Shown: one piece after another, positions 18,368-24,249 of the stretch | Position numbering within the stretch: position 1 is the stretch's first letter | Layout of the letters: each line of letters opens with the position of its first letter | Source: Candidatus Poribacteria bacterium | GTDB taxonomy: Bacteria > Poribacteria > WGA-4E > WGA-3G | Assembly: GCA_022824265.1 (NCBI GenBank) | Contig: JAJEAG010000055.1 | Span: 62,001-126,000, forward strand | DNA length: 64,000 bases | Reading direction: 5' to 3' | The notes under the pieces: model-generated | Told to the model about the DNA's origin: nothing | Seen by the model: the letters and a program-made list of their open reading frames with translations, nothing else | Database searches by the model: none | Translations under genes and position numbers: made by a program

Positions 18368-19114
18368 GTGCGACTGGAAAAATTTATCGCTACTTCAGGC
18401 GTTGCCTCTCGTAGAGCAGTAAAACACGCTATTCGAGAAGGACTTGTGACCGTTAACGGAAATGTAATACACATCCCCGGTCATCCCATCAACATAGAAA
18501 CAGATGACATTGAATTTGATGGGATAGCAGTTGAGCCATTAACCGAACGCATCTATATTATGTTAAATAAACCGACAGGTTATTTGACAACTCGTCATGA
18601 TGAACGGGGACGTCCTACTGTTATGGATCTGTTAGTAGACCTTCCGAAGTCTATTTATCCTGTAGGACGTTTAGATTTGAATTCTGAAGGTCTCTTGCTA
18701 TTTACAAACGATGGCAACTTTGCTTATCGGATGATGCATCCCAGTCATGAAATTGAAAAGACATATCTCGCTTGGGTAAATGGCGTTCTCAGTAGACGTG
18801 CACTTAATCGTCTGCGAAATGGTGTCAATATCCTTGGTGGAAGAACTTCTCCTGCCAAAATCAAACAACTAAATGTAAAATCAGCTGCTATACCTAACAG
18901 AAAAAAGAAAAGAGTTAGATATGGAGAAGTTGCAAAATATCGCGTAATAATCCACGAAGGAAAAAAACGACAGGTACGTTTGATGTTTAAAGCGGTAGGA
19001 CATAACGTTATCCGTTTAAAACGGACACACATTGGAAGGTTAGGATTAGGCAATCTCCCGCAGGGGAAGTACAGATTACTGACCCCTGCGGAAGTTGCTG
19101 AATTACAAACTTAA
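18368..19114 (+). CDS. Pseudouridine synthase, RsuA/RluB family
   Basis: This enzyme isomerises specific uridines to pseudouridine in ribosomal RNA. An N-terminal S4 RNA-binding domain (MRLEKFIATSGVASRRA) is followed by the catalytic domain. The catalytic Asp is D103 in GRLDLNSEGLLLFTNDG, and KKRQVRLMFKAVGHNV is the C-terminal family motif. At 248 residues the size and the basic insertion near residues 177-185 fit RluB-like enzymes. The start is GTG at 18368. The stop codon shares the palindrome TTAA with the stop of the converging selenoprotein gene, so the two reading frames overlap by four bases. Confidence 0.92.
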   Translation: MRLEKFIATSGVASRRAVKHAIREGLVTVNGNVIHIPGHPINIETDDIEFDGIAVEPLTERIYIMLNKPTGYLTTRHDERGRPTVMDLLVDLPKSIYPVGRLDLNSEGLLLFTNDGNFAYRMMHPSHEIEKTYLAWVNGVLSRRALNRLRNGVNILGGRTSPAKIKQLNVKSAAIPNRKKKRVRYGEVAKYRVIIHEGKKRQVRLMFKAVGHNVIRLKRTHIGRLGLGNLPQGKYRLLTPAEVAELQT

Positions 19115-20256
19115 TTGTCAGATGTCTCTCCGGCTTCCGCAGCCAATCCTTTGACACGTTCCAATTGCCTGGTAGCAGCTTGTTTCATCTGGTCATCACC
19201 AGTATGATTTATCAACTTCTCAAGAGCCTCAATTGATTTGTCATACTGTTTGTTGAGTGAATATGTAATACCAAGATAGTATTGGGAACGGTCATAAACA
19301 TTGCTTTTCGGATAATTATCAACGATTTTTTGGAAATGCATTACTGCATTTTCTGCTAATTCTGAGACATCAACGCCTTCTTTTCCAGCTTGTATCTGAA
19401 GTTGCATTGCATAAGCGAGACCAATTTCGATATGCAAATTAGGCAATAATCCCGTGCTGTTTTTTGGATCTTTTTCAATAACCTTATTACTGAACGAAAG
19501 TGCTAATTCTATTTTCTGTTGAAACTCCATTGCCCGGTGTTTCAAATAAGTAATAGCGATCCGACTATTCAACTTAACATCATCAGGCATCTTCTCGCTA
19601 ATCTGAAGTGCTTCATCAATTTGATTCTTACCAAGATAATAGAATCCAATCTCTCTGTTCAGTTCAACATCATCAGGCATTTTCTTGCTAATTGGAAGTG
19701 CTTTTTCAATCTGTTGACGCTGTAAGAATAGGATAGCAATCTCACGGTTTAGTTTAACATCATCAGGATTCTCTTCATATTTTGCCAATTTTTCTTGGAA
19801 CTCAGTCTCTTTTTTGAGGACATCTTCCATTACAGGCAAAAAATTATCTGGAGGCATGTAGCCGGAATGGTTTTTTATTACACCACCATCCGGACTAATG
19901 AACAGAATTGCTGGAAATCCTCTAATCCCATATTTTTTCTGTGCTTCCAAATTTTCAGGGCGTTCTTTATCTTCAGGGTTAACTTTAACAGGGACGAAAT
20001 TCTCAGCAATAGCAACAATACGAGGATCAGTGAAGGTGTCGGCATCCAGCCGCTTACACCATCCTCACCACTCTGTAAAGAAATCCATCATAATCGGTTT
20101 ATTGGTTTCAATGGATTGTGATGTAGCTTCCTCAATAGACATTCCCCATTCAACTTCTTCTCCTTCTGCCAGCACAGGTATTGACACTGTGAGCAGTAAC
20201 AGGACACAAAGTCCTACTAAATAGGGTGAGTGTCTGTGAAAAACAGAATTAATCAT
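19111..20256 (-). CDS. Probable selenoprotein: secreted thioredoxin-fold domain (UxxC) with C-terminal TPR region
   Basis: A standard translation breaks this gene into 63 and 279 residues, but the frame is continuous across one TGA at 20065-20067. Read through, it gives 381 residues. These are a signal peptide (~1-30, VGLCVLLLLTVSIPVLA), a thioredoxin-like domain (~35-150), then TPR-like repeats. The TGA is codon 64 in FFTEW-x-GWCKRLD, exactly where homologous domains have the first Cys of CxxC. C67 is the second. The cis-Pro loop GIRGFPAILFI is intact. A SECIS-like hairpin follows the TGA. AAGGAG lies about 7 bases before the ATG at 20256. A redox role in the periplasm is inferred. Alternatives are a nonsense mutation or a base-call error; the preserved downstream frame argues against old decay. 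Confidence 0.78.
19576..19770. repeat. In-gene tandem repeat, 90-bp period
   Basis: The word AACATCATCAGG recurs at 19576, 19666 and 19756. It encodes 30-residue units that begin MPDDVKLN or MPDDVELN in the TPR region of the selenoprotein candidate. The units are similar enough at DNA level to suggest recent duplication. Confidence 0.8.
20035..20060 (-). promoter_or_regulatory. Putative bacterial SECIS element
   Basis: On the minus strand, four bases after the TGA, arms GGTGT (20060-20056) and ACACC (20039-20035) pair. Inside them CGGC and GCCG pair around a five-base loop UGGAU, with an unpaired AAG on the 5' side. The apical loop starts 16 bases after the TGA and carries G as its second base. 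This fits the published description of bacterial SECIS elements: loop 16-37 bases downstream, with G in the first two loop positions. Confidence 0.65.
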
Positions 20257-20534
20257 TAATTCTCTCCTTAAATTTAACGTGAGCGATAGTCTCAGTATGT
20301 TATGGACTAACCTGTAAATTCAGGTGAAAATCACATTACCAACTATCTCTCTATGAGTTGTTACAATAGTATCATATTTAACAAAGCATGTCCAATTAAG
20401 TTTACAACAGGGGTAAAGTTATCCACAAGTGTTTGCTGTCAGAATCACCAAATCCACGGAATTCTTGACTGCAACTTCGATACATGCTATTGTGCATTCA
20501 TTTATATCACACCTTATCATGAAGGAGCAATCGA

Positions 20535-21804: not shown

Positions 21805-24249
21805 ATGGCTATTGAATACGCGGGAGCTTATGATGCATCGGCTATTCCTGCTGATGTTGCCCGCGAAATCGAAATTTATGAGATACAACTTGGTCGGGTA
21901 CAAGATGGTCAAGTTGAAGAGTCCCTATTTACCGAATTCAGACTCCGCCATGGTGTTTACGGTCAACGTGATGATAGATCGCAGATGATCCGTGTCAAAA
22001 TACCTTTCGGTGGACTCACAGCAGTACAACTTGAAATGTTAGCGGATGTCGCTGAAGAATTTTCGGACAATATCATCCACATCACAACACGTCAAGATGT
22101 ACAGTATCATTATGTAGATATCAACCACACACCAGAGTTAATGCGCCGTCTCGCAAGTGTTGATATTACAACGAAAGAGGCGTGTGGCAATGTTGTTCGG
22201 AATGTCACCGCATGTCCCATTAGTGGCGTGTGCCAAGATGAAGCATTTGATGTAACACCCTATTCCAAGGCGTTGTCTGCATTCCTCTTAGGACACCCCG
22301 ATGCACAGGATTTTGGACGAAAATTTAAAATCGCCTTTTCTGGATGTGAAGAACACGCCTGTGGATTAGCAAACATGCACGACATTGGTGCGGTTGCTGC
22401 AGTTAAAGAGGTTGACGGTGAAATCAAGAAAGGCTTCAAACTTTATGTTGGTGGTGGACTCGGTGCAGTACCACATCAGGCAAAGGTTTTAGATGAATTT
22501 TTATCAGCAGAAGAACTCTTGCCGATTTCACAATCAATTTGTAGAGTCTTTACCCGTTTAGGTGAACGTCGAAATCGGAATAAAGCGCGTTTGAAGTTTG
22601 TAATTGCGAAATACGGCATTGAAGAATTCCGTAGGTTGGTATATGAAGATCGTGAAACACTACGGCACGACCCAGAATGGACCGCATATCTTGATAATCT
22701 GAATGCTTACGACGAAAGCCCACTCAAAGCACCTACACAGCTTAACGGTGCCTCAACACCTGATGGATTTGATGAGTGGTATCAGTCCAATATTCGTTTA
22801 CAGAAACAACCCGGTTATGCTTTTGTTACGATTACACTCCCACTCGGTGATATTACTGCTGACCAAACCCGTGCCTTGGCAGACATCTCTCGGAAATATG
22901 TGAAAGACACTATCCGTGCCACAGTGGAACAAAATATAGTGCTCCGTTGGGTAACAATGACCGACCTTCCCGCACTATACAAAGAACTGAAAGCTATCGG
23001 TTTAGGTGATCCGGGGGCAGAATCCTTAGTAGATATCGTGGCTTGCCCAGGAACTGACTCATGCAAACTGGGTGTATCTTCTTCTCGCGGTTTGGCTGCA
23101 CATTTACGAAACTATTTTATTGAAAACGGTGTGCAGAATGAGATAGATGACTTCCGAATAAAGATTAGCGGATGCCCCAATTCATGTGGACAGCACCACA
23201 TTGCTAACATCGGTTTCTTCGGTTCTACTAAACGAATAGAGGGACGTAACGCACCTATTTACCAAGTACTACTCGGTGGACACATGGTGGAAAACGCCAG
23301 TTCCTACGGACTTGCCACTGGAAAAATCCACGGTAATTATATTCCAGATTTTATTGAAGAATTGACTGGAAAATACGTAGATGAAAAGCAAGGTGAGGAA
23401 ACATTCACCGAATACGTTGCCCGTCTCGGCAAAGCAGAAATCAAGACTATGTTGTCCAAGTACGATAAGATCCCCTCTTACGAGGAATCACCGGAGTTCT
23501 ACGTGGACACAGGCGATACGAAAGATTACCAACTCAAAACAGGTGTTGGTGAATGTGCAGGAGAGGTCGTAGCACTGGTATCCATGAAGTTAGAAGAAGC
23601 AGATAGACTTATCTATGAATCCGGTTTGAGTTTGGAAAAAGCAACATATCAAGATTGCGCAGATAAAGCATTTGATGCAATGATAAGAGCCGCTGACGGA
23701 CTCCTAACGACAGTTGGATTACAATACATTGACAATGAAACAACTGTCCAAGCATTCAAAAAACACTTCTTTGATACAGGAAACTTCTTCGCTGGATACG
23801 GGGCACATCTGTTTAAGGCAACGGAAGAAGATGCCTCTACGTTTGACCATGAATTGGCACACCGTCGTGTAGAAGAAGCTACCCTTTTTGTTGAAGAATC
23901 GCATCACATCTATGGACGTATGCGTATTAAACAAGAGGAAGAGGAAGCGAGTAAACGTAAAACCCGTAGATCGCGTTCTGCTCCGAAACCGAAGGTTGTC
24001 AAAGAGAAAAAACCTGTAGAGGAAATCACTGATAGCCTTGACCTGAAAGGTGTCGCATGCCCATTCAACTATGTCCAAGCGAAAGTTCGGTTAGAAACGA
24101 TGGATGTTGGTCAACTCTTAGAGATTACTATTGACGATGGTGAACCGATTGAGAACGTACCGAAGAGTCTTACGAACGATGGTCACGATATTCTTGATAC
24201 TAAGAAGATTGGAAAACACTACCGCCTGACGATCAAGAAAGGTGAGTAG
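21805..24249 (+). CDS. Siroheme sulfite/nitrite reductase fused to a HEPN-like and a TusA-like domain
   Basis: The first ~560 residues are a ferredoxin-type siroheme reductase with two symmetric halves. The second half carries the four [4Fe-4S]-siroheme ligands: CPGTDSC (C414, C420) and CPNSC (C457, C461). Residues ~575-705 are an all-helical HEPN-like domain. A basic linker (KRKTRRSRS) follows, and the last ~80 residues are TusA/SirA-like with the sulfur-carrier motif LKGVACPFNYVQAKV. The reaction is six-electron reduction of sulfite to sulfide or nitrite to ammonia. The fused sulfur carrier favours sulfite reduction coupled to persulfide transfer, by inference. CAAGGAG precedes the ATG. A double hairpin follows. 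Confidence 0.87.
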   Translation: MAIEYAGAYDASAIPADVAREIEIYEIQLGRVQDGQVEESLFTEFRLRHGVYGQRDDRSQMIRVKIPFGGLTAVQLEMLADVAEEFSDNIIHITTRQDVQYHYVDINHTPELMRRLASVDITTKEACGNVVRNVTACPISGVCQDEAFDVTPYSKALSAFLLGHPDAQDFGRKFKIAFSGCEEHACGLANMHDIGAVAAVKEVDGEIKKGFKLYVGGGLGAVPHQAKVLDEFLSAEELLPISQSICRVFTRLGERRNRNKARLKFVIAKYGIEEFRRLVYEDRETLRHDPEWTAYLDNLNAYDESPLKAPTQLNGASTPDGFDEWYQSNIRLQKQPGYAFVTITLPLGDITADQTRALADISRKYVKDTIRATVEQNIVLRWVTMTDLPALYKELKAIGLGDPGAESLVDIVACPGTDSCKLGVSSSRGLAAHLRNYFIENGVQNEIDDFRIKISGCPNSCGQHHIANIGFFGSTKRIEGRNAPIYQVLLGGHMVENASSYGLATGKIHGNYIPDFIEELTGKYVDEKQGEETFTEYVARLGKAEIKTMLSKYDKIPSYEESPEFYVDTGDTKDYQLKTGVGECAGEVVALVSMKLEEADRLIYESGLSLEKATYQDCADKAFDAMIRAADGLLTTVGLQYIDNETTVQAFKKHFFDTGNFFAGYGAHLFKATEEDASTFDHELAHRRVEEATLFVEESHHIYGRMRIKQEEEEASKRKTRRSRSAPKPKVVKEKKPVEEITDSLDLKGVACPFNYVQAKVRLETMDVGQLLEITIDDGEPIENVPKSLTNDGHDILDTKKIGKHYRLTIKKGE

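Follow-up and report, generated by a model that had tools for sequence, protein, structure and literature searches.

An in-frame UGA very probably encodes selenocysteine in an apparently undescribed thioredoxin–TPR protein family of Poribacteria

Described relatives of the thioredoxin–TPR protein

In systems that have a SECIS element together with the selenocysteine (Sec) machinery, SelB carries Sec-tRNA to an in-frame UGA, selenocysteine is inserted, and translation continues. In a catalogue from 2026, prokaryotic selenoproteins are sorted into 119 families or subfamilies. Thioredoxin-like ones are among them, one being a thiol:disulfide interchange protein with a UxxC motif (PF13098); no family in the 119 is described there as having a thioredoxin–TPR architecture (PMC13188914). 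The protein analyzed here, encoded on the minus strand of a 64,000-nucleotide stretch of a Poribacteria contig (the window), shares both the Thioredoxin_2 domain PF13098 and the UxxC motif with the thiol:disulfide interchange entry (PMC13188914, Table 1), and the features of that class are found in it: the Thioredoxin_2 match is above the cut-off, the predicted Sec comes first in the motif, and Cys67 and cis-Pro115 are invariant. The catalogue entry is listed under PF13098 only, whereas the Poribacteria protein adds a TPR superhelix; it is by this listing that the two are set apart. We therefore regard the thioredoxin–TPR family as a new and apparently undescribed member of the known UxxC thioredoxin-fold selenoproteins, which narrows the original prediction of a possibly undescribed protein, since the UxxC class was already known and it is the TPR-fused family that appears new. 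A literature search, with most subscription literature and preprints outside its scope, returned no paper naming both Poribacteria and selenoprotein.

Three other described proteins bear comparison. The best NCBIfam match is TsoB (NF045694, a rhodanese/DsbD fusion-like selenoprotein; E 2e-22). The alignment pairs residues 17-146 with the thioredoxin part at the C-terminus of TsoB, but the score of 78.9 bits is far below the cut-off, 805, and the Poribacteria protein has neither a rhodanese nor a DsbD membrane part; moreover, the motif given for TsoB is UxxxxU, unlike the UxxC found here (PMC13188914). Among solved structures, DsbD gamma and DsbH resemble the thioredoxin domain most closely by fold, and by sequence they are among the best matches, but they have Cys where the Poribacteria protein has its predicted Sec, and they have no TPR. 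CnoX (YbbN), which is cytosolic in E. coli and is not known to be a selenoprotein, has a thioredoxin domain followed by TPR in one protein, as here, but a specific relationship of the TPR part is not detectable by sequence search.

The gene and its TGA codon

The gene runs on the minus strand from an ATG at 20256 to a TAA at 19113-19111, a frame (20256-19111) of 381 codons whose sole interruption in the window sequence is the TGA at 20067-20065 (codon 64); the original prediction thus had the coordinates of the lone TGA right, and the product would be 381 aa with Sec at residue 64. A ribosome-binding site, AAGGAG (20264-20269), precedes the ATG with a spacing of 7 nt and is retained in the homologues checked (upstream regions of 7 genes). 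Residues 1-30 (20167-20256) form a probable Sec-type export signal, presumably cleaved after VLA, and the N-terminus is hydrophobic in most homologues. The TGA (20065-20067, in the context FFTEW-TGA-GWCKRLD) is the first position of a putative UGWC motif. As proposed, it occupies the site of the first active-site Cys, in a DsbD-gamma/DsbH-like thioredoxin domain, and distant relatives have Cys there. The other elements said to be intact were likewise recovered, namely the AAGGAG site, the probable export signal, an invariant cis-Pro and a region that matches TPR models.

To ordinary gene callers codon 64 is a stop, and the gene would be split in two. Were the TGA a true stop, because the gene is a pseudogene, is divided into two parts or contains a sequencing error, a TTG at 19950 could start a separate thioredoxin/TPR part of 279 aa, and an open frame from this TTG (19950-19111) is indeed present in the ORF list. 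A start at 19950 would, however, leave out the active site together with half the thioredoxin fold, and the ribosome-binding site stands in front of the ATG at 20256. Selection is purifying on both sides of the TGA: downstream of it, dN/dS is 0.09-0.19 (Nei-Gojobori, 13 homologue pairs), indicating that the region past the TGA is selected as protein in this frame. Codon 64 is TGA in 60 of 60 loci of a first set and in all 30 of a second search (the two sets overlap in part), across families of the phylum, in homologues down to 30% identity and in independent assemblies, some with contigs of more than 5 Mb; this recurrence excludes chance or sequencing error. We consequently rejected a pseudogene or sequencing error on the conserved TGA and the low dN/dS, and a true stop of any kind is extremely improbable.

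The residue at codon 64 in homologues follows the same pattern: it is TGA in all homologues examined, and no Cys form was seen among the close orthologues examined, with Cys appearing at the equivalent site only further away, in the distant relative L143 (CYWC) and the same genome's DsbD-like paralogue L149 (CAAC). L143 (G047:C6:52400-56400) is a single open frame that joins a sigma-factor region, a Cys-type thioredoxin–TPR part related to the selenoprotein family, and a WD40/TolB-like propeller.

SECIS hairpin and selenocysteine machinery

Scanning the window for TGA codons flanked by long open frames with no competing ORF gave three candidates, of which only codon 64 has a good bacterial SECIS-like fold. 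Folding and alignment place an apical hairpin, CGGC-UGGAU-GCCG, at 20040-20052 (minus strand), with its loop starting 16 nt after the UGA. The constraints published for bacterial SECIS elements are a loop of 3-9 nt, a G in the first two loop positions, a distance of 16-37 nt from the UGA, a stem of at least 4 bp and an MFE of -7.5 kcal/mol or lower (PMC13188914). The hairpin of the window gene lies within these limits, its best SECIS fold reaching -19.9 kcal/mol, and the mRNA downstream of the UGA folds with z = -2.85. Among the 60 homologues, our folding script found 50 within all of the limits, while in 57 the scored loop is this one, at 16 nt from the UGA; the 10 that fall outside the full rule do so mostly because the lower stem varies, so that the part that is really conserved is the apical hairpin only.

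The loop itself is UGGAU in 58 of the 60 homologues and UGGAC in the other 2. The R-L-D-A codons that lie over the hairpin are CGG in 55, CTG in all 60, GAT in 58 and GCC in 56, compared with usages outside the hairpin in the same genes of 0.21, 0.16, 0.64 and 0.17, respectively; for an invariant Thr two codons further on, all four codons are used. Judged from these sequences, the near-frozen hairpin codons are a mark of constraint on the RNA and not on the protein. The third stem pair changes from G-C to A-U, with both sides altered, in three sequences; this is a modest covariation signal at most, since the sequences are related and the change may be one event. A nearly invariant 13-nt hairpin at a fixed 16 nt from the UGA offers a natural series of SECIS elements for studying SelB recognition outside the classical models.

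All four selenocysteine genes are present in the genome of the window (4.45 Mb, 96.7% complete): tRNA-Sec (selC, 78.1 bits, anticodon UCA), selB (TIGR00475, 354.5 bits against a cut-off of 242), selA (608.8 bits) and selD (361.8 bits). The tRNA-Sec gene is directly downstream of selB (L044:6933-8948 and L001:1501-1590; G000:C34); a lipoyl synthase-like gene follows the pair, and two signal peptidase-like genes are immediately upstream of selB. SelD (L109, G000:C8:37723-38649) has an in-frame TGA of its own, in the context CAG-U-ASK. A hairpin of weak predicted energy follows, its loop, CGGGU, starting 16 nt past the UGA; by this reading SelD is itself a selenoprotein. Of 60 relatives, 53 have the tRNA-Sec gene. 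G009, a genome from the same genus that is 95% complete, keeps tRNA-Sec but does not have the thioredoxin–TPR selenoprotein, and other selenoproteins presumably maintain the Sec trait there.

These data also bear on the alternative that a suppressor or reassigned tRNA places Cys, Trp or some other amino acid at the UGA, which would make the product an ordinary protein. The larger ORFs of the window end in TGA in only 3 of 38 cases (TAA 20, TAG 15), as in lineages drifting towards reassignment, and distant relatives have Cys at the site. Yet no UCA anticodon other than that of tRNA-Sec was found among the tRNAs examined in the window's genome, where tRNA-Trp has anticodon CCA and tRNA-Cys GCA, and it is for want of a further UCA tRNA that we rejected a suppressor or reassigned UGA. 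Intact selA, selB and selD, a SelD with its own Sec codon, and a TGA present in every homologue together with a frozen hairpin, spaced from it as in known cases of SelB-dependent insertion, also weigh against reassignment, which we consider very unlikely. TGA is a rare yet genuine stop in the window; the original prediction had called it a normal one, which holds for its function but not for its frequency.

Insertion of selenocysteine at the codon 64 UGA, and with it a genuine selenoprotein gene, is what we infer with high confidence from the sequence evidence, and the prediction of a probable Sec-containing selenoprotein is supported by the sel genes, the conserved TGA, the SECIS hairpin and the purifying selection downstream. 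In the mRNA, the UGA is followed 16 nt on by the bacterial-type hairpin CGGC-UGGAU-GCCG; SelB would bring Sec-tRNA to codon 64, selenocysteine would be inserted and translation would continue. The product would be exported and would consist of a thioredoxin-fold domain, with Sec-x-x-Cys at its active site, and an attached TPR superhelix.

Architecture, proposed function and distribution

The thioredoxin domain comprises residues 39-149 (19810-20142, minus strand) and is of the Thioredoxin_2/Thioredoxin_7, DsbD-gamma/DsbH-like type: Thioredoxin_2 (PF13098) matches the read-through protein with 58.7 bits against a Pfam cut-off of 27 (E 8e-16), Thioredoxin_7 and DsbH-type models match as well, and the thioredoxin-type matches together span residues 33-149. 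Within it, the putative resolving Cys67 of the UxxC motif (20056-20058) is Cys in 60 of 60 homologues, the residues between U and C vary (GW, GF, GA, GS, GY, PA, YW, DF and others), cis-Pro115 (19912-19914) is invariant, and D71 and K91 are invariant across the aligned homologues. Residues 150-372 (19141-19809, minus strand) form a TPR superhelix, as indicated by several TPR models, paired helices and matches to TPR structures. An AlphaFold2 model built with nine sequences (mean pLDDT 84.8) has a thioredoxin fold at about residues 41-149 and, joined to it, the TPR superhelix. In fold and sequence searches the thioredoxin part groups with DsbD-gamma, DsbH and related envelope disulfide oxidoreductases, and the remainder of the protein groups with TPR proteins. 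The original prediction of a secreted redox protein fused to TPRs is supported, the export signal being probable and the redox role putative.

The relatives of the thioredoxin part and the probable export signal make an envelope thiol-disulfide oxidoreductase with an attacking Sec the most likely function, and we favor, at somewhat better than even odds, an envelope thiol-disulfide reductase or repair protein. The Sec selenolate would attack disulfides, or sulfenic acids or peroxides, in cell-envelope substrates, Cys67 would resolve the selenenylsulfide, and the TPR part might hold partner proteins or an electron donor.

A different possibility, still within the selenoprotein reading, is a CnoX-type chaperedoxin, a thioredoxin–TPR holdase that guards proteins during oxidative stress, in this case one that carries Sec and is exported. 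CnoX is described as uniting holdase and redox protection (PMC6282202, PMC8129009); the identical domain order and matches to TPR_19 and TPR_20, both weak, are in keeping with such a relationship. Against it, the thioredoxin domain is nearer to DsbD-gamma and DsbH, the 50 best fold matches include no CnoX structure and the matches of the TPR-region sequence search include none either, and the export signal contrasts with the cytosolic location of the E. coli protein; we consider a CnoX-type protein unlikely. Equally doubtful is a wider scenario in which an exported, Sec-only "seleno-chaperedoxin" binds oxidized envelope proteins, repairs them with its selenocysteine, is kept almost order-wide and is one reason for the enrichment of Sec machinery in sponge symbionts. 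The neighboring genes (pseudouridine synthase, HAD hydrolase, PdxJ, Gfo/Idh oxidoreductase and a sulfite reductase/TusA fusion) are uninformative on function. The last of these, at 21805-24249 on the plus strand of the window, encodes an 814-aa protein in which a duplicated nitrite/sulfite reductase is fused to a TusA sulfurtransferase domain at the C-terminus.

Whole-genome searches located thioredoxin–TPR homologues throughout the Poribacteria order. With a profile built from 46 homologues, site-spanning matches with one TGA were obtained in 73 of 85 Poribacteria genomes, as counted from the match listing. Nearly all deep-branching relatives in the class and phylum are without the thioredoxin–TPR selenoprotein in the genome searches, and when genome contigs were sampled for close relatives in a single pattern scan reaching beyond the phylum, all matches were Poribacteria. 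On these sequences the family is apparently Sec-only across Poribacteria, so that the selenoprotein catalogue would gain a well-supported family of this kind, carried by nearly an entire order of uncultured bacteria and by most of the phylum as searched here.

Poribacteria are mostly sponge-associated. SelA and SelB have been reported to co-occur in the majority of sponge symbiont genomes and to be missing from most of their relatives, in a passage that names no selenoprotein (PMC5649159); the thioredoxin–TPR protein is a concrete candidate for what lies behind the enrichment left unexplained in that passage.

Two apparent exceptions were set aside. A copy in G078 that starts past the Sec site is truncated at the end of its contig (L151, contig 3531 long), and the TGA codons flagged inside DsbD-like proteins of other genera (L144-L147) are off the active site, where the residue is Cys.

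Additional TGA-containing genes accompany the family in several genomes. In G006, a second, longer paralogue adjoins the first copy (L018, L083; G006:C130:19822-22549), and second TGA-containing copies also occur in G003, G004, G007, G008 and G013, some of these second paralogues seemingly without the usual N-terminal signal. A 148-aa relative (L107, G022:C50:2223-4465) shares the position of the TGA, has an N-terminus like that of a lipoprotein and lacks the TPR part.
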